From IMG/VR virus record IMGVR_UViG_3300009034_000142, positions 1 through 33,005 of that record: DNA of 33,005 bases. One strand, written 5' to 3'. The notes under the pieces were generated by a model. It saw only the letters and a program-made list of their open reading frames with translations, made no database searches and was not told the origin of the DNA. Within the stretch, counting starts at the first letter, position 1; each line of letters begins with the position of its first letter. This document shows, piece after piece, positions 2,952 to 25,508 of this stretch. Source of the DNA: a virus. Position numbers and translations under genes: made by a program.

Positions 2952-3677
2952 ATGAAAAGAAGTGGGTGGCCTGAATCCGAAATAGAATTAGCAAAACCAG
3001 TGATTCAATGGCTTCAAGATCACAAATGGGAAGTGTATCAAGAGGTTCAGATTTCCGCCTATGGTAATATTGCAGATATCGTGGCAGTTCAAGGGATAAT
3101 TGTATGGATAATAGAATGCAAGCGGTCATTAAGTATTGCCGCTATAGGACAGGCTTTTCATTGGAAGTATACTGCCAATTATATCTCTATAGCAACTCCA
3201 TCTCGTTATATAAGACGGGCTACTTTTGGGCCTGAGATACTTCAGGTATTTGGCTTTGGGCTTTTAAGGGTGCATAAAACTTGGGATAGTTTTGATATTC
3301 ATGAAGTTGTTCGGCCACAATTAAATCGGAAAAGAAATGATAAGGTCCTTAACTCTAAATGGCTTCGGGATAAATTGGTAGAGCCTCAAAAAACCTTTGC
3401 TGAGGCAGGTAATCCGAATGGCCAACGCTGGACACCCTTTCAAGAAACTTGCCATAAGATTTTACGAGAGGTTGAAAAACAACCAGGATTAACTATGAGG
3501 GAGCTTTTAGAGAGAATAAATACACATTATAACTCTATATCTACGGCTCGCACAGCCATTGTTAATTGGGCAAAGCAGGGTGTGATAGATGGTGTTTGTG
3601 TGAGATATGAAGGTAGAAAAATAAGACTATTTCCGACTTCAACATTTCCTCTTGACAACGAACAAAATGTTTGTTAG
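2952..3677 (+). CDS. PD-(D/E)XK nuclease-like protein with C-terminal winged helix
   Basis: In the 241-residue product the first 80 residues show the restriction-endonuclease-like core: a helix, NIADIVAV with D42, and IIECK with E55 and K57, which together form the D-ExK catalytic motif. A C-terminal region (about 160-235, TMRELLERINTHY) looks like a winged helix for DNA binding. Such proteins cut or process DNA, for example in recombination or host-DNA attack; the precise role is not shown. The ATG at 2952 lacks a strong ribosome site and follows the structured RNA, which may control its translation. Confidence 0.6.
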   Translation: MKRSGWPESEIELAKPVIQWLQDHKWEVYQEVQISAYGNIADIVAVQGIIVWIIECKRSLSIAAIGQAFHWKYTANYISIATPSRYIRRATFGPEILQVFGFGLLRVHKTWDSFDIHEVVRPQLNRKRNDKVLNSKWLRDKLVEPQKTFAEAGNPNGQRWTPFQETCHKILREVEKQPGLTMRELLERINTHYNSISTARTAIVNWAKQGVIDGVCVRYEGRKIRLFPTSTFPLDNEQNVC

Positions 3678-8747: not shown

Positions 8748-9072
8748 GATTTATTTGGATATTCTTAGTCGGCTAAAAAATCCCAAAACTAAAATTGAAT
8801 GGAAATGGCTACAGGGATGTGAAGGTGAGGTTGAAGAGGCAGGCAATGATAAATTTGATAAAATATTTATCACCCCAGGATTGATTATAAGGGTACTTAT
8901 CCATGAAGCATTACATTTAGAGTTTCCCGAGTGGAGCGAAGAACAGGTTTTATATTATGAACGCAAATTAATGAGCCGCCTAATTCTTCGGCGTAGGAAT
9001 GCCCTATTTCAAGAAGCATGGAAAAAAATAAAAGTTTTTGGTGGGGCTGGAAGAACCAGAAGCATGATGTGA
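8731..9072 (+). CDS. Small HExxH putative zinc metallopeptidase
   Basis: The 113-residue product contains RVLIHEALHLEFPEWSEEQV: H58, E59 and H62 form an HExxH zinc motif, with E70 or E71 as a possible third ligand. GTG 8731 has GGGAG upstream and overlaps the previous gene by 17 bases; an upstream ATG at 8677 would overlap more. Its last codons lie in the first copy of the repeated 54-nt motif (9047-9100). Function unknown; small zincins in phages may act on host factors. Confidence 0.6.
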   Translation: MRKIDKIYLDILSRLKNPKTKIEWKWLQGCEGEVEEAGNDKFDKIFITPGLIIRVLIHEALHLEFPEWSEEQVLYYERKLMSRLILRRRNALFQEAWKKIKVFGGAGRTRSMM

Positions 9073-9100
9073 GGAACCAAATTTCTTATGTCCAGCCCCC
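9043..9100 (+). ncRNA. Copy A of a two-copy 54-nt conserved motif
   Basis: GGGGCTGGA (9043-9051) pairs perfectly with TCCAGCCCC (9091-9099). Between them are the conserved blocks AGAACCA, GATGTGA and GAACCA, separated by variable 7- and 8-nt stretches. Positions 9047-9100 match 15877-15930 at 44 of 54 bases without gaps. The shared blocks are read in different frames by the overlapping genes, so conservation acts on RNA or DNA, not protein. It ends 12 bases before the next ATG, which has no ribosome site of its own. Riboswitch, protein-binding RNA or a small mobile repeat are options. Confidence 0.55.
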
Positions 9101-13484: not shown

Positions 13485-13658
13485 ATGGTTAGTTCAGATG
13501 ATTTTAGGGTAGGCGATACCGTAGCTCCTTTAAGCAAGAAAGGATGGTCCTATGGAAAGGTAATTAAAGTAAACCCAAGGACCGTGCTGATTCGAGTTGA
13601 GCATCCGGTAGGTGGCTTGATTAAAGAAAAGAAGGTGAGGTTAAGAAAAATTGGCTAA
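13485..13658 (+). CDS. Small SH3/KOW-like beta protein
   Basis: A 57-residue frame: FRVGDTVAPLSKKGWSYGKV resembles the first strands of a KOW/SH3-like barrel and the rest is basic. No ribosome site is evident and the start is uncertain. Its stop overlaps the TTG start of the next gene, which supports a coupled, real gene. Confidence 0.45.
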   Translation: MVSSDDFRVGDTVAPLSKKGWSYGKVIKVNPRTVLIRVEHPVGGLIKEKKVRLRKIG

Positions 13659-15918
13659 ACTCAAATGTCCCATTTGCAATTACGAAAAGTCCAACCTTGT
13701 TAACCATGTAAAGCGAGTTCATGGTCTATCGCCAGAGGAAGTCAAAGAACAATACCCCGATGATCCGTTGACTTCCGAGGAAGCCAAGGCCATGGCAAAG
13801 AAAGCAAAAGCACTTTTTCAAGATTTAGAAGGAGAACGCAAGCCCGATATAACGAAAAAGCAAAGGGGCAGAAGGGTGCCTGTGGCCATGTCCGAGAAAC
13901 AAGCCGAGGAACTTCTAGCCGAGATAGAAAAATTTGATGCCCAGAAACGAAAAGAAATGGCGGATATTGAAGAAGAACTTAAGAAATATCCCGACTGTAC
14001 TCAGAGGGATATGGTAAGAGATTTAGTTTTGCATTGTTTTTTGGGTGATCAATTAATTAATTGTCCAAATGGAGAACAAAAATGTATTAAGGATATACGG
14101 GTGGGAGATTATGTTTTAGATTCTAATGGGTTACCGCAACAAGTTATGAAGACAAACAAAAGAAGATATATAGGTAACATGTTAGTGATTAACACTTATT
14201 ACAATCCTAATAAGAGTTTTTTACTTACTCCGAATCATCCAATATTATCAATCAAACGGAATAATATTAAATGTAAAAAATATCCTTCTATTATGCAGAT
14301 GTGTCCGACCAAACAAAATATAGACACAGAACAGTTATGTATAGATTGTAAATATAAACAACAACCCATTGGCGGTGTAGCATATTCTATTGCCAGTTGT
14401 TTAGAGGTAGGTGATTATATTGCAACACAAGCAGAGGCCCTAAATAATAAAAGCTTATTGTTGTTAGGTTTAAAACCATTAATTGTAAATAATGTTAAAG
14501 AAATGAAAAACATTAATGGTTTTTTAGGTGGATATGGTACAAGAAACCCTCTTAAAAAAAGAATACCCTCACATATAGAATTATCTAATAGAGTTTTAAG
14601 ATTGTTTGGTCTTTATTTGGCAGAAGGTTATATTATTAAAGAAAATGATTTGTTTGGTGGGGTTGGATTTGGATTTCATATTTTAGAAGATAATTTGGCT
14701 AAAGAAGTTTTAGATACAATAAGTAGTGTTTTTAAAATAAAGGGGAAAATATACAAAAAACCAAAAACAAATAGTCAATCTGTAGTTTTTTATAGCCGTT
14801 TACTTGCTGAAGTATTTTATAATCTTTTAGGTAGTGATGCACAGTATAAAAAGATATCAAAAACTTTATTTTTGGGTTGTTCCGCTAAACAATTGTTACA
14901 AATAGTGAGTGGCTTTATTGATGGCGATGGGCATATATATAAGAGGGCACGTAAGGTTTTATGTGCATCCATATCAAAAACCCTAATTTGGCAATTGTGG
15001 ATTATTTTACGCAACAATAATTTTGTTCCATCCTTAAAACTATTTTCTAATAAGGTGAATAAGAGACAGGCATGGTCGCTTTGTTTGTATGGCGATGATG
15101 CTTTGAAGTTTAGCAAACTGGCAGGAAATGATAATTATAACAATGTACAAAAACATCCACGTAGTTCCCTATATTTTTGTTATATGAATAAGGTTTTTGT
15201 TCCCATAAAATCAATTCAAATTAAGGAGTTTAATGGTTTTGTTTATAATTTGGCGGTTAGAGATAATCCAACATATTTAGCGAGTAATTGTGTAGTTCAT
15301 AACTGTCGTATTGAGTGGAAATCCTATATGGCTTTCAAGAGGCAGTTAATAGATATGAGAACATTTACCAGTGATTTCGAGCGCGATAAACACTCGTCAA
15401 TAATGGCTGCCCTCGATCATCTGCGAGATGCCATGAAGCAATTAAATATTTTCTACAAAGAGGGTCAGGAGCAGGAAAAGACCTCAGATATTGTCTATAA
15501 AGTCTTTGATGATATGGAACGATTTGTTCAATCCCATGTGGGAGAATTTTCGTTCAGGTGTAAGAATTGTAACCATATAATTGAGGCAGGGGGGTTACCT
15601 AAAGTCTATTACGAATACACAGATGAAAAGGGAGACACTCAGTATCATGTTTGGAGTGAGAGATTATATAAATTATTCAAGAAGGGTATTATTGAATACT
15701 GGACCATACCATATATATTTAATCAAGGAATTCTTAGTGTGATTTATACTTTTATGATTAGAAATTCCATTAAAGATACTGATATTGGCTTGCGTCAATT
15801 TGGGTTTACATGGGAACAGTTAGAAAAAGAAGAAAAATTGCTATTAAAATTTAGAAAGAAAGATGAGGTGGGGAGGCTGGAAGAACCAAAATTAAGATGT
15901 GAAGAACCAGATGAGTAA
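13651..15918 (+). CDS. Small-terminase-position zinc-finger protein containing an intein
   Basis: The 755-residue precursor consists of an N-extein (1-128), an intein (129-551) and a C-extein; spliced length is 332 residues. The N-extein begins with a CxxC...HxxxH zinc finger (C6, C9, H19, H24) and a charged helix; the C-extein has a second CxxC (FRCKNCNH). Position upstream of TerL and a DNA-binding N-terminus suggest the small terminase subunit, but I do not recognise the family. Start TTG 13651 has AGGTGAGG upstream. The 3' end contains copy B of the conserved 54-nt motif. Confidence 0.6.
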   Translation: MAKLKCPICNYEKSNLVNHVKRVHGLSPEEVKEQYPDDPLTSEEAKAMAKKAKALFQDLEGERKPDITKKQRGRRVPVAMSEKQAEELLAEIEKFDAQKRKEMADIEEELKKYPDCTQRDMVRDLVLHCFLGDQLINCPNGEQKCIKDIRVGDYVLDSNGLPQQVMKTNKRRYIGNMLVINTYYNPNKSFLLTPNHPILSIKRNNIKCKKYPSIMQMCPTKQNIDTEQLCIDCKYKQQPIGGVAYSIASCLEVGDYIATQAEALNNKSLLLLGLKPLIVNNVKEMKNINGFLGGYGTRNPLKKRIPSHIELSNRVLRLFGLYLAEGYIIKENDLFGGVGFGFHILEDNLAKEVLDTISSVFKIKGKIYKKPKTNSQSVVFYSRLLAEVFYNLLGSDAQYKKISKTLFLGCSAKQLLQIVSGFIDGDGHIYKRARKVLCASISKTLIWQLWIILRNNNFVPSLKLFSNKVNKRQAWSLCLYGDDALKFSKLAGNDNYNNVQKHPRSSLYFCYMNKVFVPIKSIQIKEFNGFVYNLAVRDNPTYLASNCVVHNCRIEWKSYMAFKRQLIDMRTFTSDFERDKHSSIMAALDHLRDAMKQLNIFYKEGQEQEKTSDIVYKVFDDMERFVQSHVGEFSFRCKNCNHIIEAGGLPKVYYEYTDEKGDTQYHVWSERLYKLFKKGIIEYWTIPYIFNQGILSVIYTFMIRNSIKDTDIGLRQFGFTWEQLEKEEKLLLKFRKKDEVGRLEEPKLRCEEPDE
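14035..15303 (+). other. Intein with LAGLIDADG endonuclease (423 residues)
   Basis: Begins at C129 of the precursor (CFLGDQL), has block B TPNHP (T193, H196), two LAGLIDADG motifs (LYLAEGY around E325, and GFIDGDG around D424) and ends VVHN before Cys+1. All splicing residues for a class 1 intein are present. The DNA is clearly more A/T-rich than the flanking gene, with codons such as TTA, ATA and AAT enriched, which points to separate ancestry. The extein junction is ...LVLH|CRIEW.... Confidence 0.9.
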
Positions 15919-15933
15919 TGTCCAGCCCCCACC
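15867..15933 (+). ncRNA. Copy B of the two-copy conserved motif
   Basis: Outer stem: GGTGGG (15867-15872) with CCCACC (15928-15933) and, after a two-base bulge, GGCTGGA (15875-15881) with TCCAGCC (15921-15927), 13 pairs in all. Positions 15877-15930 align with copy A without gaps. The copy lies in the last codons of the terminase-region gene and 20 bases before the next ATG, which here has a normal AAGGAG. Because pac sites of some phages lie in the small terminase gene, a DNA recognition role is another option. Confidence 0.55.
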
Positions 15934-16915: not shown

Positions 16916-18535
16916 ATGTCCAGATTAAGCCTTAAACAAAAACTAAAAAAATTCAGATCCACATCTCTACCTGAAGGATGGAAGAAGGAATACACATCCT
17001 ATTCTGTATTGCGTGGCAACCGAACCATGTTCAGTGATTTCTGGGGGCCGAGAATCTTTGGGGTCAACTTTACCGAAACCCGATATTATCAAATCCCATG
17101 GTTATTGGTTGATGATGGAAATGTCAGTAGTGGAAGGCAGACAGGAAAATCGAAGGTTTTGAATCTGAAGTTACTTTATGATGAGATCAACACAACAAAT
17201 GAGGAAAGATTTCTTGCCACATTCCGTGATGCCCATGTCAACGACCGCCAGAGAGACCTTGAGATGGCCCACAACCAGGAGCCATTCTTTATGGGATTCT
17301 TGATGACAGGTAAAATCAGGGGTTCTGTCATAAAGGAGGCTGTAAAGGAATGGAGGTTTATACATGGTGGCTATCTCTTTCTGGCAAATGTGGGAGATGC
17401 GAAGGTTCCAGCCTCAATACTGGGCAAATCGCCAGTGAAAAGGTATCTTGAAGAGGCTGGTGTCTTCCCGAGTAGTGCATGGAGTAAGTTTTTTCACACT
17501 AGGTCTCCAAAAGGATGTAATGATTTCTTTGTAGGGACATGTGATGTAGTGATGACGGGTAGTCCGCTTTATTTGGCTGATACTATTTATGATAAGTTTA
17601 AGGGTGGGCGCTTCCATACATCAAAAAGAATGGAAGCTAATTTTTCTATCAGTGATTTCAATGAAGCTAAAAAACAAGGTGGCGAACACAGCGATAACTT
17701 CAAGAGTCTGATAGATGCCGAATTCACCACATTATCGACCTATGCTTGGGATATAAGGGCCGTGGAGAAATGCTTCAAGGATGTGCCGGAATACAGGAGA
17801 ACCACACTTAATCCCGAAACCATAGGTGACAAGAAACCACATCAATTATTCTATGATCTGCCACAGTATATTGAGGGAGATACCTATACCATCTTCATGG
17901 ACCCTGCGGGAACCCAGGCATCATTGATTGGGGTTTTTAGGGGGGAACGATTAATTTTTAGGGTTGAGCTGATTGAGAAAGTGATTTTGCCCATTCAGGC
18001 CGACATACTTGATTACCTCATGACATACTATAATGCGAACTTTGCTGGGATTGACTGTACTTGGGATCCGAGCATAGCGGATTCTTTAATTGCCGAGGTT
18101 AAGGATGAGTATAAGGGCAAGAATTATAAGGATAGGATTGTTAGCTTTACCTTCCAGCAGAGGGTGGTTACGGGATACGATATACATCCAGACGATGGGG
18201 ATAAGCTTGAGCATATGCAACGGATGGTGGAAAAGAAAGAGATGGTTAAGGATTTGGCCATAAGGCTTTTAGCAAACGATCTAGCTAATGGAGTTCCCGT
18301 ATTGCCTAGAAGCGATGAGGCTGAGATCAAGGCCGATTTTGAGTCTGAGGTAGAAAAAAGGTCCATACTGACTGGCAAGCCGTTGCTATATACCCCTTCA
18401 AATGTGCATTTTCCTGAGATGATGAGGGTGAGGGCTTATACCCGTTGGGTCAAGACTGGTCAACAGCCCGAAAAACCAGGGAAGAAGTCTAGTGGTATTG
18501 CGATGCCGGAGTTTGGGAAAAGAATATGGGGCTAA
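16916..18535 (+). CDS. terL: Terminase large subunit
   Basis: The 539-residue protein has the packaging ATPase Walker A SSGRQTGKS (71-79) and the RNase H-like nuclease domain with IFMDPAG (D329) and AGIDCTWDPS (D380), then HFPEMMRVRAY near the C-terminus. It drives DNA into the procapsid and cuts the concatemer. Length is normal for the family. The ATG has no strong ribosome site. Flanked by small zinc-ribbon genes rather than immediately by the portal, which is 3.6 kb downstream. Confidence 0.9.
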   Translation: MSRLSLKQKLKKFRSTSLPEGWKKEYTSYSVLRGNRTMFSDFWGPRIFGVNFTETRYYQIPWLLVDDGNVSSGRQTGKSKVLNLKLLYDEINTTNEERFLATFRDAHVNDRQRDLEMAHNQEPFFMGFLMTGKIRGSVIKEAVKEWRFIHGGYLFLANVGDAKVPASILGKSPVKRYLEEAGVFPSSAWSKFFHTRSPKGCNDFFVGTCDVVMTGSPLYLADTIYDKFKGGRFHTSKRMEANFSISDFNEAKKQGGEHSDNFKSLIDAEFTTLSTYAWDIRAVEKCFKDVPEYRRTTLNPETIGDKKPHQLFYDLPQYIEGDTYTIFMDPAGTQASLIGVFRGERLIFRVELIEKVILPIQADILDYLMTYYNANFAGIDCTWDPSIADSLIAEVKDEYKGKNYKDRIVSFTFQQRVVTGYDIHPDDGDKLEHMQRMVEKKEMVKDLAIRLLANDLANGVPVLPRSDEAEIKADFESEVEKRSILTGKPLLYTPSNVHFPEMMRVRAYTRWVKTGQQPEKPGKKSSGIAMPEFGKRIWG

Positions 18536-18742: not shown

Positions 18743-19114
18743 ATGAGAGGTTATGGGAAGGAGTTAATATTAGATTTACATGAATGTGATGTTTCCTTAT
18801 TTAATAGAAACGATCTTAAGAAATATTTTAAGGCAGTGTGTAGGTTAATTGATATGGAGCAAGCTAAATTAGTATGGTGGGATTATTATAATGAACCAGA
18901 AAATTATAAAATAGCACCTCCACATTTAAAAGGCACAACTGCTGTTCAATTCATAATGACCAGCAATATCACCATTCATACCCTAGAGTTACTTAAAAGG
19001 GTTTATGTCAATATCTTTTCCTGCAAGGATTTTGAGGCACACAAAGCGAGGCGATTTACTGAAAAGTGGTTTAAGGGAAAGATTGTAAGGAGTCATACGA
19101 TAGAAAGGGTTTAG
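18743..19114 (+). CDS. S-adenosylmethionine decarboxylase-like protein
   Basis: The 123-residue protein matches the bacterial SpeD/SpeH fold: GKELILDLHECD at the start, then FIMTSNITIHT and VYVNIFSCKDFEAHKA. By alignment to the ESHISIHT region, the serine that becomes the pyruvoyl group (S74), the histidine (H79) and the cysteine (C94) are kept, while the glutamate before the serine is threonine. The enzyme family decarboxylates SAM for polyamine synthesis after self-cleavage; homologues may act on arginine or ornithine. Lies directly before the DUF3326 gene and behind GAGGGGG. Confidence 0.7.
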   Translation: MRGYGKELILDLHECDVSLFNRNDLKKYFKAVCRLIDMEQAKLVWWDYYNEPENYKIAPPHLKGTTAVQFIMTSNITIHTLELLKRVYVNIFSCKDFEAHKARRFTEKWFKGKIVRSHTIERV

Positions 19115-19116
19115 AA

Positions 19117-20100
19117 ATGAATGTTGTTCTTATTGTTCCAACTGGTATAGGAGCTGAAATTGGAGGTCATGCTGGTGATGCGAATCCCGTTGCAAAATTG
19201 GTGGCTTCTGTTTGTGATATTCTTATTACCCATCCTAATGTAGTGAATGCATCAGATATAAATGAAATGACAGAGAATACTTGGTATGTTGAAGGAAGTA
19301 TGCTGGATAGATTCCTTTGGGGAGAAATTCAACTTCAGAGGGTTAAAAGCAATAAGGTTATGGTTGTTGTGAATCCACCCGTGAAGAATGAAACAATAAA
19401 TGCAGTTTCGGCTGCTAGGACAACCATTGGTCTTGATGCTTATATTGTTGAATTAAAAACACCCTTGCAATTAATAGCGACCATGGAGGATGGTAGAGCT
19501 ACTGGCCATGTATTAGGATATGAGGAATTAATAGAACAAGTTCGTGGTTATGATTTTGATGCATTGGCTATTACAACCCCTATTATGGTTGAGAAATCAG
19601 TTGCTTTAAATTATTTAAAGAACGGTGGGGTAAATCCTTGGGGAGGAGTAGAAGCAAAGGCTTCTAAGTTAATTTCTCTAGCATTGAATAAACCCGTGGC
19701 TCATTCCCCAGTGGAGGATACACTTAATTTTAATGAAGTTGTAGATCCAAGGATGGCTGCCGAAGTTGTTTCAAAGTGCTATTTGCATTGCATATTAAAA
19801 GGTTTGCACAGAGCACCGAGAATTGGCACTGGTTTATCTTTTAGAGATATAGGTTTTTTGATTACACCAATTGGTTGTGTGGGCGAACCCCATAGAGCTT
19901 GTCTAAAGGCAAACATCCCCATTATAGCAGTTCAAGAAAACAAGACTTGTTTGAATGATAAGATGCCAGATGAATTTATTCTTGTAAAGAATTATTTGGA
20001 GGCTGTTGGGATAATACAGACTGCAAGGGCTGGAGTGACTTTAGAATCTGTCCGTAGGCCTGTTTCTTATACGAAGGTTAAAAGAATCGGAAATATATGA
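19117..20100 (+). CDS. DUF3326 family protein
   Basis: The 327-residue product opens with VVLIVPTGIGAEIGGHAGDA and continues ITHPNVVNASDINEM, EGSMLDRFLWG, then NPWGGVEAKAS and HRAPRI, the conserved pattern of DUF3326 known mainly from cyanobacteria and plastid-bearing organisms. The function is unknown; the glycine-rich start suggests nucleotide or cofactor binding. It overlaps the next gene by 4 bases and follows the SpeD-like gene by two bases. Full family length is kept, so it is likely functional. Confidence 0.8.
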   Translation: MNVVLIVPTGIGAEIGGHAGDANPVAKLVASVCDILITHPNVVNASDINEMTENTWYVEGSMLDRFLWGEIQLQRVKSNKVMVVVNPPVKNETINAVSAARTTIGLDAYIVELKTPLQLIATMEDGRATGHVLGYEELIEQVRGYDFDALAITTPIMVEKSVALNYLKNGGVNPWGGVEAKASKLISLALNKPVAHSPVEDTLNFNEVVDPRMAAEVVSKCYLHCILKGLHRAPRIGTGLSFRDIGFLITPIGCVGEPHRACLKANIPIIAVQENKTCLNDKMPDEFILVKNYLEAVGIIQTARAGVTLESVRRPVSYTKVKRIGNI

Positions 20101-21104: not shown

Positions 21105-21317
21105 ATGGCCAAAAGAATCAATATTGTCGTAAATGGATGTTTTGAATGTCCATATTACCATTGTGATGAACTTGGATGGGTATGTGCCAAGTCAGATAAG
21201 TTGTTGGAACTTGGATATATAGAGAGGCTTGAACCTAATCAGATACGTGATTCAAAATATAAATATCCTAAATGGTGTGAATTAGAAGAATATATGGATC
21301 AAAGTACGGTAAGTTAA
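21105..21317 (+). CDS. Small phage protein with CxxCPYY...WC pattern
   Basis: A 70-residue protein with CFECPYYHCDE, WVCAKSD and PKWCELEE: a spacing seen in small phage proteins of unknown role, probably zinc-binding. Its stop codon lies inside the hairpin-forming inverted repeat at 21310-21333. Confidence 0.6.
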   Translation: MAKRINIVVNGCFECPYYHCDELGWVCAKSDKLLELGYIERLEPNQIRDSKYKYPKWCELEEYMDQSTVS

Positions 21318-21333
21318 CAAAAATGTTAACTTA
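21310..21333. promoter_or_regulatory. Perfect inverted repeat TAAGTTAACA / TGTTAACTTA
   Basis: Arms of 10 bp with a 4-A loop, covering the stop codon of the preceding gene. Each arm has the GTTAAC hexamer also found in the inverted repeat at 1110-1138. It could be a hairpin at the end of the transcript or an operator for the gene at 21407. Confidence 0.45.
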
Positions 21334-21358
21334 TTGAATTTAGGGTTATCGTAACAAG

Positions 21359-21400
21359 AGCCCGCTTAATCCTTTGAGATTTGGCGGGCTTTTTTATTTT
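21359..21400 (+). terminator. Rho-independent terminator
   Basis: AGCCCGC (21359-21365) pairs with GCGGGCT (21384-21390), followed by TTTTTATTTT. Typical intrinsic terminator; it ends the transcript carrying the terminase, SpeD-like and DUF3326 genes. Confidence 0.8.
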
Positions 21401-21406
21401 GGAACC

Positions 21407-21814
21407 ATGATGTTTTGTAAAAACTGTAAAAACAGAGATTCCTGCAAAAAAGCTTGTCACGACCTGAATAAATACCTCAGTAAACTGACAAAGAAGCAGT
21501 CAAGAAAAACTGTTTTGTTTTCTTCCGTACCCGGGAGTGATGGAGAATCACCATTGGAATATATCATTTTTAAAGAGGGGAATCCTTCATTCTGGCCCAG
21601 TGGAGATTACGATACACATATTATCCTTGACCGATTGAAGCCCCAGATTATGTCCCGCCTTTCGCCACGACAAAGGGAATGCGTGGATCTCCATTACTAT
21701 CAGAATTTATCTACTTATAAGATTGCGACAATACTTGGCATCTCACAGCCCTGCGTCATGAATTACCTCAAAAAGGCCAAAAACAAGCTTAGGGGGTTAT
21801 TACCTGACGGATAA
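21407..21814 (+). CDS. Sigma-70 region 4-like transcription regulator
   Basis: The 135-residue product begins with a Cys cluster (FCKNCKNRDSCKKAC) and ends with LSPRQRECVDLHYYQNLSTYKIATILGISQPCVMNYLKKAKNKL, here listed only in its key parts: a sigma region-4 helix-turn-helix. It may redirect host RNA polymerase or act as a late regulator. The start is ATG 21407 just after the terminator, so it must have its own promoter or be reached by read-through. I cannot see a clear promoter. Phage late regulators often sit next to structural genes. Confidence 0.65.
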   Translation: MMFCKNCKNRDSCKKACHDLNKYLSKLTKKQSRKTVLFSSVPGSDGESPLEYIIFKEGNPSFWPSGDYDTHIILDRLKPQIMSRLSPRQRECVDLHYYQNLSTYKIATILGISQPCVMNYLKKAKNKLRGLLPDG

Positions 21815-21990
21815 TGAGAGCGTAAGCCAAGATGCCCGTTCAGGATAAGCGGGCTTGGTTATTAAAAATCCTACAATAACTTGTATGATTCCAGTCAAAA
21901 AACTGTATGAATTCATACAATTCACCCCATCCGAGATAGTATCTCGGATCAATGCTCCGCAACGGAGCATTCATAAATAGATATGTCGAT
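21815..21990. other. Hairpin-rich gene-free segment with four inverted repeats
   Basis: Gene-free DNA between the regulator and the RNA-like element. In order: a stem CCAA-(gat)-GCCCG / CGGGC-TTGG (21827-21858), a 16-bp perfect palindrome TGTATGAATTCATACA (21904-21919), ATCCGAGATA-g-TATCTCGGAT (21929-21949) and AATGCTCCG-caa-CGGAGCATT (21951-21971). Arms are perfect in the last three. None is followed by a poly-T run, so ordinary termination is unlikely; they may be operators, processing signals or a cos/pac-like site. Confidence 0.6.
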
Positions 21991-22148
21991 GCCGATTTTC
22001 TGCCCCGATGCTCACGGGGAAAAAGAAAGTAGTATGTCCGCAGGCAAACTCATTATAAGAAGTGCCTGCGGTAGTTGCAACCTACTTTCTAGGAGCCAGA
22101 AATCGGTACTATTACAAGCTGGGAGGGTGTTCGGCCACTCGACCCAGC
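21991..22148 (+). ncRNA. Candidate branched structured RNA upstream of portal
   Basis: A closing helix CCGATTTTCTG (21992-22002) / CAGAAATCGG (22097-22106), 10 pairs with one bulged T, encloses two arms: CCCCG-atgctca-CGGGG (22003-22019) and AGAAAGTAG/CTACTTTCT (22024-22032/22082-22090) crowned by CCGCAGGCA/TGCCTGCGG (22038-22046/22063-22071). A further hairpin follows, GCTGGG/CCCAGC (22118-22123/22143-22148) continued by GGGTG/CACTC around TTCGGC. The last hairpin is flanked by direct repeats TACTATTAC (22107-22115, 22154-22162). Almost every base is in a helix or its loop; it ends 17 bases before the portal ATG. Family unknown. Confidence 0.65.
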
Positions 22149-22165
22149 ATTTCTACTATTACTAA

Positions 22166-23755
22166 ATGCCTAAAAAATTAACTGGTGTTAAAGCACCCTT
22201 CATACCCCAAGGTTCCCCAAAGAGCTTTTTTGGCTCTGCCAACCGAACTTCCTATACCGATCAGATTCAAATAGATTATTCCATTCCATCCTCCTATTAC
22301 GAAAAAGTCAAAAGGATACGTACCCACTATAAGCGTGATCCCCTGTTCAGATTCTTGATTGACAGGACAATCCAATTTGCCACTACACAGTCCGAATTTG
22401 AAATTGGCATTGAGGATACATCGTTCTGGCAGAAGTTAAAGGATAAAATTACTAGGAAGGAAAAACAGAGAAGGAATGAGGAAGATGTCTGGAACCTCTG
22501 GCCCACCAAAATCAATGCCATCATACCCCTTGTACCCAACGGACTAATCCATGTGCAGCGATGGTTCTATAAACATCTTCTCTTAGACGGTATGGTGGTG
22601 CCGGAGTTTAAATGGAATAAAATTCAACTGGGCAGAAAGGAATACAAACTTCCCACACAGATCACCGTGCATAAGCCCACTACCATACAAATTCTTCAAA
22701 AGAATGAATATTTTGGGAGTGAGCAATTGATCAAAAATGTGGGTCGAATCACGAAGCGAACACTGGATAAGGACGGTAATATACATACCGAACAATCTAC
22801 CCAGGACAAATATGAAACCATACATCCTATTGGACAGAGCAAAAATGACCTTGAGGGTTGTTGTATCCGTTTCAACTGGACACCCGGGGATCTTTCTGAT
22901 GCGGATTTAGGCATAAAAAAATCCAACTCCGCTGACAATAATTATCCCGACATCCCCTTTATTGATCTGCTTCCCGTGCTTATTCTCAGGGAGGCCTTAT
23001 TTGCCTCAGACCTTTCCATACTGAATGGGGTTATTGAGTATTTAATGCTTTGGAAATTAGGAGACAAAGATAACCCTCCCGAGCCAGCCAAAAGGGATCC
23101 AACTTCCGGTCAGGTCATACAGGGCAAGGAAGGGGATATTTATTGGTTTAAAAAGGCAATTGAGGGACAACTTGCCAATGTCATGCAACTTTTTGTGGAT
23201 TATCGTGTTAATCTGGAAATCAAGACCCCACCCGTGGAAACATTAATTAATAGAGATAAATACATTCCTTCCACAGTAGAAATATTGCATAGGTTCGGGA
23301 TATTTGGGCTTTTGGAGCAGGCCGATGACGAGGTGTGGGAATTTAACATTGCCAATTTCGAGGAATTATTGAAGGATTTAAGGATGTTATGGATTGGATT
23401 TGTGGATCTTCTTAAAGGGGAGATCTTAAAACGCAATCCAGAGCTAACAAATGAGCCGAGACATGTCATGAGTCCGGTTAATACACAGACAACAGAATTT
23501 AAAAATGCCCTTCTCCAACTTCGGAAGTTGGGCCAGATATCATGGGAAAGCACCCTAAAGGGCTTTAATTTGAGCGATAAGGTTGAACAAACAAGGATTG
23601 CCAGAGAACTTTCTACTGGCATTAAAGAAATGCTTGATGAAACCTCGCCCATCCAATTTGCACAACGCACAGTAGATCCTTCGGGCAAGGTTACTGAAAA
23701 CAAAGACAAATCCCCCAAAAGGGGTAGACCAAAAGAAAAACTTGAAAAAGAGTAA
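22166..23755 (+). CDS. Portal protein
   Basis: The 529-residue product has the size and order expected for a portal: SSYYEKVKRIRTHYKRDPLFRFLIDRTIQFA near the N-terminus, a central region with ALFASDLSILNGVIEYL and a charged C-terminal tail (KRGRPKEKLEKE), directly upstream of lysis and head genes. The dodecameric portal is the DNA entry vertex of the capsid. Assignment is by pattern and context. ATG has no obvious ribosome site, but a structured RNA precedes it. Confidence 0.7.
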   Translation: MPKKLTGVKAPFIPQGSPKSFFGSANRTSYTDQIQIDYSIPSSYYEKVKRIRTHYKRDPLFRFLIDRTIQFATTQSEFEIGIEDTSFWQKLKDKITRKEKQRRNEEDVWNLWPTKINAIIPLVPNGLIHVQRWFYKHLLLDGMVVPEFKWNKIQLGRKEYKLPTQITVHKPTTIQILQKNEYFGSEQLIKNVGRITKRTLDKDGNIHTEQSTQDKYETIHPIGQSKNDLEGCCIRFNWTPGDLSDADLGIKKSNSADNNYPDIPFIDLLPVLILREALFASDLSILNGVIEYLMLWKLGDKDNPPEPAKRDPTSGQVIQGKEGDIYWFKKAIEGQLANVMQLFVDYRVNLEIKTPPVETLINRDKYIPSTVEILHRFGIFGLLEQADDEVWEFNIANFEELLKDLRMLWIGFVDLLKGEILKRNPELTNEPRHVMSPVNTQTTEFKNALLQLRKLGQISWESTLKGFNLSDKVEQTRIARELSTGIKEMLDETSPIQFAQRTVDPSGKVTENKDKSPKRGRPKEKLEKE

Positions 23756-25508
23756 AAAAATAATTGTTCTTGATCCTGGTCATGGGGGAGCAGACACGGG
23801 GGCTAGGTTTAAAATGCCTCCGATTTTGGGAATATCTGAAAAACCTGCATTTATATATGAAAAAGATATTGTTTTGAACATTGCCCTACTTTGTCAAAAT
23901 TATATGGAAACTTTGTTCAAGAATGTGGAGGTGTATCTGACTCGATCTGGAGACAACTATCTCAAATTAAACACCCGCACTATAAAGGCAAGAAATTGGG
24001 GGGCCGATGCCTTTGTCAGCGTACACTGTTTTCCGGCTGGTACAGAAATTACTATGGCCGATGGAGTTATAAAACCCATTGAAGATGTTTTGGTAGGAGA
24101 ATATGTGATGAACTCCTCTGGGATGCCGACCAGAGTGAAATCTACATACTCTCGGTACTACTCAGGACCATTGGTCAAAATTAAACCCTATAAAAGTAAT
24201 CTTGAATTGTTGCCTACCCCAGAGCATCCGATAGCTTCGGATTATGGGGGCAGTTCGAAACAATGGGGTTATATTAAAGCGAGAGATCTCAAAAAAACTC
24301 AACGTGTTGCTTTGCCGATTCACTCTTTTACTGTTCCAATTTCGGAAATTGACCTTGCTCAGATCTTAAGGCCTATTTACCATTTTGATGTAGAAGATGA
24401 GCAAATTTGGATAAAAAGAAGTCTATTTACTAAAAAGCCACGCAATAACAAAGCAATTCCAAGATATGTCCATATTGATAATGATTTATTATGGCTCTTG
24501 GGTATCTTTTCTGCTGATGGTTCAAATCAATTGATTAGACATTATGGCAAGATGAGTTTTGGGTTCAACCGAGACAAAGATAGGAACAAAGCTACAAGGT
24601 GTGCAGAAATATTCAAAAAGATATTTGCAATTGATATGGTTCTTAATGATCGAAAAACAGCCCATGTGATTGACGGATACATCCTCTCCTCGGTTGTATG
24701 TCAGTTGTTTGATTATCTGGTTTCTGGCAAAGCCGAGCATCGTCATTTGTCTTCCTTGCTGATGTTATTGCCACAAAAACAACAGCATCATCTGCTTAAT
24801 GGATGGCTTGATGGTGATGGAACAATATATCCAGATAGATTGAAGGGAGATTCAATTTCCCGAAGTATGCTTAACCAGTATTATCAAATTGCCTTGCGAT
24901 GCGGAATGCATCCTAGTTACCAAAAAATTGAATTCACATCGGGTTACGGGAGTACTAAGCCAAACCACAGGCTGTCATGCTCCGCCCACGACTTATGTGG
25001 AGAAACACCAAAAGCGAATGTATTTTATAGACAATATCCAAAAGGGCTTGCGGTAGAACTTAAAGACCTGAGTAGACTTGATTTTGAGGGTGATGTGTAT
25101 AATCTCGAAACTGATACAAAATCTTATGTTGCTAACAAAATTGCAGTCCACAACTGCAATGCTGATCCCGATGAGGATTTTCCAGATATGCCGGAGGCCA
25201 GTGGTGAAGAAATCTGGGTTTATAGCAAAGAAAGTAAGGGTTATGCACTGGCGCAATCAATAGAGAAATATCTTAAAAATATTTTCCCCAAATCTCCATA
25301 TAGGGGCATTAAGGAAAGTAAGAGTCTTTATGTACTCAGGGAAACCGCTATGCCAGCCTGTCTGGTGGAGTGTGGCTTTATAGATGCGGTAAAACGAGGA
25401 GACCTCAGTTATCTTATTTCAGGCGAAGGACAGACCGAGATAGCGGTAGCCATAGCAGATGGCATAACGGATTATTTATTGGAAATGGATGTTCAAAGCC
25501 AAAATTAA
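23742..25508 (+). CDS. N-acetylmuramoyl-L-alanine amidase interrupted by an intein
   Basis: The 588-residue precursor is an Amidase_3 endolysin: IIVLDPGHGGADTGA at the start (zinc ligand H14), E40 as a likely second ligand, VSVH with H95, and VECGFI with catalytic E543. The intein (96-471) sits exactly between H95 and the conserved CNAD; splicing restores SVHCNAD and leaves 212 residues. Thus the unspliced protein should be inactive. The start is TTG at 23742, overlapping the portal end by 14 bases. No signal peptide, so it needs a holin for export. Confidence 0.85.
   Translation: MKKSKKIIVLDPGHGGADTGARFKMPPILGISEKPAFIYEKDIVLNIALLCQNYMETLFKNVEVYLTRSGDNYLKLNTRTIKARNWGADAFVSVHCFPAGTEITMADGVIKPIEDVLVGEYVMNSSGMPTRVKSTYSRYYSGPLVKIKPYKSNLELLPTPEHPIASDYGGSSKQWGYIKARDLKKTQRVALPIHSFTVPISEIDLAQILRPIYHFDVEDEQIWIKRSLFTKKPRNNKAIPRYVHIDNDLLWLLGIFSADGSNQLIRHYGKMSFGFNRDKDRNKATRCAEIFKKIFAIDMVLNDRKTAHVIDGYILSSVVCQLFDYLVSGKAEHRHLSSLLMLLPQKQQHHLLNGWLDGDGTIYPDRLKGDSISRSMLNQYYQIALRCGMHPSYQKIEFTSGYGSTKPNHRLSCSAHDLCGETPKANVFYRQYPKGLAVELKDLSRLDFEGDVYNLETDTKSYVANKIAVHNCNADPDEDFPDMPEASGEEIWVYSKESKGYALAQSIEKYLKNIFPKSPYRGIKESKSLYVLRETAMPACLVECGFIDAVKRGDLSYLISGEGQTEIAVAIADGITDYLLEMDVQSQN
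24027..25154 (+). other. Intein with LAGLIDADG endonuclease in the amidase (376 residues)
   Basis: Starts CFPAGTEITM, has block B TPEHP (T159, H162), two endonuclease motifs (GIFSADGS around D259, GWLDGDG around D357) and ends AVHN before Cys+1. All class 1 splicing residues are intact. It is only loosely similar to the intein at 14035-15303, so the two were probably acquired separately. Insertion at a catalytic motif is typical of inteins. Confidence 0.9.

Follow-up and report, generated by a model that had tools for sequence, protein, structure and literature searches.

The phi29 pRNA is encoded near the end of the phage genome, while the element considered here lies between genes. That pRNA is a phage RNA of comparable size that is likewise built on a three-way junction, in a phage with a gp16-type ATPase; the features of phi29-type pRNA used for comparison are those given in PMC12670572. 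The put RNA of HK022, ~70 nt long, folds into two stem-loops that form a V; its stem II is irregular, and the RNA makes specific contacts (PMC9378689). It suppresses termination in cis through binding to the beta' zinc-binding domain of RNA polymerase. ROOL and GOLLD are large structured phage RNAs of unknown function (PMC12286853); they are several hundred nucleotides long, often located near tRNA islands and backed by covariation. The general class of structured 5' leaders offers a further comparison.

The locus compared with these systems lies in a window of 33,005 nt, which is the whole stretch of viral DNA analysed (positions 1 to 33,005 of the IMG/VR record IMGVR_UViG_3300009034_000142). 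An initial annotation had described a large branched RNA-like structure at 21991-22148, and the sequence and the coordinates of this element are as described there. The element forms the 3' half of a structured gap between a gene coding for a sigma-70 region 4-like HTH protein (21374-21814, + strand, likely start ATG 21407 or 21410) and a putative portal gene (22166-23755, + strand, 529 aa). All main genes of the window are on the + strand.

The stretch 21991-22148 is a strong RNA-like structure far beyond chance. Its minimum free energy (MFE) on the + strand is -64.7 kcal/mol (z -4.9), a value matched by none of 200 shuffles. The first claim of a fold beyond chance is also borne out in the larger test, in which none of 3000 shuffles was as low and the shuffle minimum was -59.4 kcal/mol; the AT-rich background invoked with it is just moderately so, as the GC content of the contig is 40%. 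In a scan of the + strand over the whole contig (823 windows of 158 nt), no window has a lower energy than this stretch, and only one, with a palindrome and terminator at 21281, has a lower z. Lying immediately before the sigma-like gene, that region (21310-21400) combines the long palindrome TAAGTTAACAAAAATGTTAACTTA with an intrinsic terminator that has a T run, and its z is the lowest of the contig. The 158-nt extent given initially holds for the element itself, but the structure extends over more than double that length, since the whole gap (21815-22165, 351 nt) folds with a z of -7.7. The fold of the element stays the same when the beginning of the downstream coding region is added.

The predicted fold contains a three-way junction (21990-22108, + strand) and a separate hairpin, which we will call hairpin D, and the junction is present in both the MFE and the centroid predictions. 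The junction is closed by a stem with one bulge, as first noted, but the stem begins at 21990 and has 12 pairs rather than 10 (21990-21998/22100-22108 and 22000-22002/22097-22099). It carries the 5-pair arm of the first description (22003-22007/22015-22019) and a long arm of 9+3+9 pairs. Both helices of what had been called a two-storey 9+9 arm are predicted (22024-22032/22082-22090 and 22038-22046/22063-22071), with three further pairs between them (22035-22037/22077-22079). Hairpin D (22118-22148, + strand) has 11 pairs with an internal loop (22118-22123/22143-22148 and 22125-22129/22136-22140) and the terminal loop TTCGGC, and the pair probability is high in hairpin D as in the closing stem and both arms. 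The hairpin is bracketed, as reported initially, by the two copies of the direct repeat TACTATTAC on the + strand, the first at 22107-22115 and the second at 22154-22162, within an unstructured 17-nt tract before the start codon. The earlier statement that nearly all of the 158 nt are paired agrees with a junction and a hairpin that fill almost the entire stretch, and the predicted fold together with the window scan supports a branched RNA-like fold rather than a set of terminators. An alternative, AU-rich pairing between AGUAGUA (22028-22034) and the UACUAUU repeats was weighed by eye as a putative switch.

Because the helices are mostly Watson-Crick, both strands fold about equally, and the same 158 nt on the - strand have an MFE of -64.1 kcal/mol (z -5.2). 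Three internal wobble pairs, 21991-22107, 22037-22077 and 22126-22139, pair on the + strand only and become A-C mismatches on the other strand, and no wobble pairs favouring the - strand were found in the main helices of the 21990-22148 element. The G-U pairs confined to the + strand therefore favour an RNA transcribed in the direction of the genes, for which this small count of three to none is modest evidence. An open reading frame of 60 aa covers the element (21983-22165), but its codon score is below the 1st percentile of the true coding chunks of the contig, which rules it out as a gene, and no coding signal was found in the gap. The sole + strand promoter-like match near the element is at chance level, and the interval between hairpin D and the downstream gene contains no + strand terminator-like sites.

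The 5' half of the gap has a different layout. Just 3' of the sigma-like gene is a weak terminator-like, G+C-rich hairpin of 7 pairs (21834-21854, + strand), which is extended by pairing of 21825-21830 with 21855-21860. An operator-like inverted repeat follows at 21881-21920 and consists of a perfect 16-nt palindrome, TGTATGAATTCATACA (21904-21919), and a half site, TTGTATGA, at 21881; the palindrome has no second copy within the window. Hairpin A (ATCCGAGATAGTATCTCGGAT, 21929-21949, 9-10 pairs) and hairpin B (AATGCTCCG-CAA-CGGAGCATT, 21951-21971, 9 pairs) are both perfect and are separated by a single base.

On its 3' side, the element ends 17 nt 5' of ATG 22166 with no alternative in-frame start nearby, which agrees with its original placement directly before the next gene. 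The intervening tract (22149-22165, + strand) is mostly unpaired and has no Shine-Dalgarno (SD) motif. Among the 36 genes tested, ATG 22166 has the weakest anti-SD pairing (+1.7 kcal/mol), and several other genes of the contig likewise have no SD. For the product of the downstream gene, searches of PHROGs, Pfam, NCBIfam, PDB and phage genomes gave no match, so the name portal, used from the outset, reflects gene order only. An AlphaFold model of this protein made from one sequence had a pLDDT of 33 and was unusable. The putative terminase (16916-18535) is also without a match in PHROGs, Pfam, NCBIfam or PDB; by eye it has a Walker A motif, GRQTGKS, and a nuclease-like FMDPAG motif, and these motifs suggest a large terminase of the nuclease-bearing kind and not a gp16-type ATPase. 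Among PHROGs, the capsid protein matches one of major head proteins (7e-8), and it gives a weak match to a solved phage major head protein (E 0.14).

We consider the chances about even that the gap combines a control region with a structured 5' leader that works in cis on the operon of the head genes, which begins with the putative portal gene. The transcript would start from a promoter around the operator-like palindrome at 21881-21920, and its first ~240 nt would form hairpins A and B, the three-way junction and hairpin D as they are transcribed. The short unstructured, SD-less tract and then the start codon would come after hairpin D. Most probably such a leader would govern in cis the expression of the gene or genes after it, through the access of ribosomes or the stability of the mRNA, and a phage protein may bind the junction or hairpin D. 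What the sequence shows is the potential to fold, the layout and the absence of a coding signal and of an SD, from which we infer the promoter, the transcript and the control. The locus resembles structured 5' leaders in general in its location, in the same-strand genes and in the unstructured start region that comes after a folded leader; it differs from them in matching none of the known leader families, in having no known ligand or regulator and in the absence of an SD. The proposal in the initial annotation of a leader controlling portal synthesis is kept as the best reading for the downstream gene, with the portal identity given by gene order only.

Structured leaders before phage head genes have been little studied. 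If the fold is real in cells, the RNA element would belong to no family described so far, and the phage lineage that carries it has an unmatched terminase and portal. A broader proposal is tentative: in an undescribed phage lineage, the three-way junction and hairpin ahead of the portal gene would represent a structured phage RNA of a new class that controls head assembly or takes part in it. A portal-linked RNA would let one ask how phages tune the dose of the portal, which forms one ring per head. As a single sequence without relatives, the element amounts to a well-supported prediction, not to a functional finding.

Instead of a cis-acting leader, the element may be a discrete trans-acting phage RNA, for example a stable one processed from the leader or one of the packaging type, that stands before the downstream gene by chance, which we regard as rather unlikely. 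Its compact, highly paired form would suit such an RNA, and large structured RNAs such as ROOL and GOLLD are known from phages (PMC12286853), but there is no above-chance promoter directly upstream and no terminator after hairpin D to delimit a transcript of its own. A search of the whole window against Rfam 15 gave no match at gathering, and shorter stretches searched at E up to 10 gave chance-level matches to eukaryote-type families, far below gathering, so the earlier remark that the family was not recognised still stands. The Rfam models without a match include those of ROOL and GOLLD, group I and group II introns and known ribozymes, as well as phi29-type pRNA (Phage_pRNA), which had no match at gathering or at E up to 10. 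ROOL, GOLLD and the element are alike as ornate structured RNAs of phages with an unknown function, but the element is ~160-240 nt long and stands before a head gene, in a window where no tRNA or tmRNA was found.

The packaging RNA raised in the initial annotation is not sustained by these comparisons. The element lies beside a putative portal gene and has the three-way junction of the phi29 pRNA, but whereas the left and right loops of pRNA are complementary and serve ring assembly, no complementary 4-mer of this sort links the arm loops here. The sole 4-mer from any arm loop joins the loop of arm 1 to a junction strand, and by eye there is a 3-mer AUG/CAU complementarity, with loop pairing absent at 4 nt or more. 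As to a gp16-type ATPase and a gp10 connector, the putative terminase and portal are without a family match, and the nuclease-like motif seen by eye in the putative terminase speaks against gp16. Two other named systems were also considered and rejected. The closing stem and arms suggested a retron ncRNA, but no reverse transcriptase was recognised among the main proteins of the window; TTAC repeats suggested an IS200/IS605-type end, but no transposase or matching ends were seen.

It is unlikely that the gap works at the DNA level, its inverted repeats serving as operators, as an origin of replication or as a site of recombination or packaging, and that the RNA fold is incidental. The 5' half of the gap is made of perfect palindromes, the fold is about equally good on both strands and DNA folding parameters give a z of -8.2. 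The 158-nt part, however, has bulges, internal loops, unequal arms and + strand wobbles, unlike a DNA palindrome. A DNA element fits the 5' half better than the 3' half (21991-22148), and hairpins A and B and the palindrome, which show no strand asymmetry, could act as DNA. The GC skew falls from ~+0.2 to slightly negative between 21.25 and 23.1 kb, but this dip is local, spans two genes and involves no lasting change of sign, and no iteron-like repeats were found there. In the window, the dip extends over ~1.8 kb (21250-23100) and takes in the sigma-like gene, the structured gap and the 5' part of the putative portal gene, after which the skew recovers.

We think it quite improbable that the leader is of the HK022 put kind, modifying RNA polymerase for processive antitermination along a long head-gene operon. 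Both are structured leaders near the start of a phage operon, here ahead of a run of same-strand genes, and hairpins A and B, adjacent and one base apart, recall the two put stem-loops (PMC9378689). In put, however, the irregular stem II contacts RNA polymerase, whereas hairpins A and B are perfect and short (21 nt each), form neither a V-shaped pair of ~70 nt nor an irregular stem II, and are followed by a 119-nt three-way junction. In the next 10.8 kb, + strand terminator-like sites are not enriched, accounting for 3 of 14 sites (shuffle mean 9.4, both strands), so that the window offers little for an antiterminator to overcome. Finally, it is highly improbable that the gap is intergenic sequence that evolves fast and has no present function, its inverted repeats being remnants of template switching or of a lost mobile element. 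No known relative keeps the element, and a 9-nt direct repeat flanks the hairpin as after some insertions, but the direct repeat does not abut matching inverted ends, and in the absence of selection one would expect decay of the five nine-pair helices in the 351 nt.

Relatives of this locus were sought at both the protein and the DNA level. Scans of viral contigs and of genome contigs, together with phage and plasmid BLAST, gave no relative of the portal, terminase and capsid proteins or of the DNA of the element. By these searches, the virus is an orphan among the collections covered. The single-protein contig scans rely on exact short peptides, which detect close relatives only, so that more distant ones may well exist. 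A terminase pattern match in one contig (L010) was rejected as a chance match.

An adjacent pair of genes coding for SpeD (S-adenosylmethionine decarboxylase) and a DUF3326 protein, at 18743-20100, is common to seven viral contigs (L003-L009), with identities of 45-59% and 54-68%, respectively. Among 50,697 phage records, none matches DUF3326. The seven contigs were rejected as sister phages, as they have only SpeD-DUF3326 in common with this virus, and tblastn and whole-record portal and capsid searches gave no head genes; one of them (L007), which encodes a portal-like protein of 711 aa, seems by eye to be an unrelated phage. LAGLIDADG intein-like insertions are found in two proteins of the window, a zinc-finger protein encoded upstream of the putative terminase (13651-15918) and an N-acetylmuramoyl-L-alanine amidase (23742-25508). 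The intein-bearing zinc-finger protein has a weak match to SP-15 but reached no relatives; the match lies under an SP-15 gene annotated as a putative endonuclease, inside the major capsid gene.

The window contains other repeats. A 62-nt element with inverted ends (GGCTGGA...TCCAGCC) occurs in two copies, 9039-9100 and 15869-15930, which are 81% identical and are each located at a gene end. The copy at 15869-15930 folds better than nearly all its shuffles, whereas the copy at 9039-9100 does not. A partly palindromic 19-nt motif, ACGAACAAAATGTTTGTTA, is present in five copies of at least 84% identity, at 3658, 6157, 9458, 11110 and 28121.
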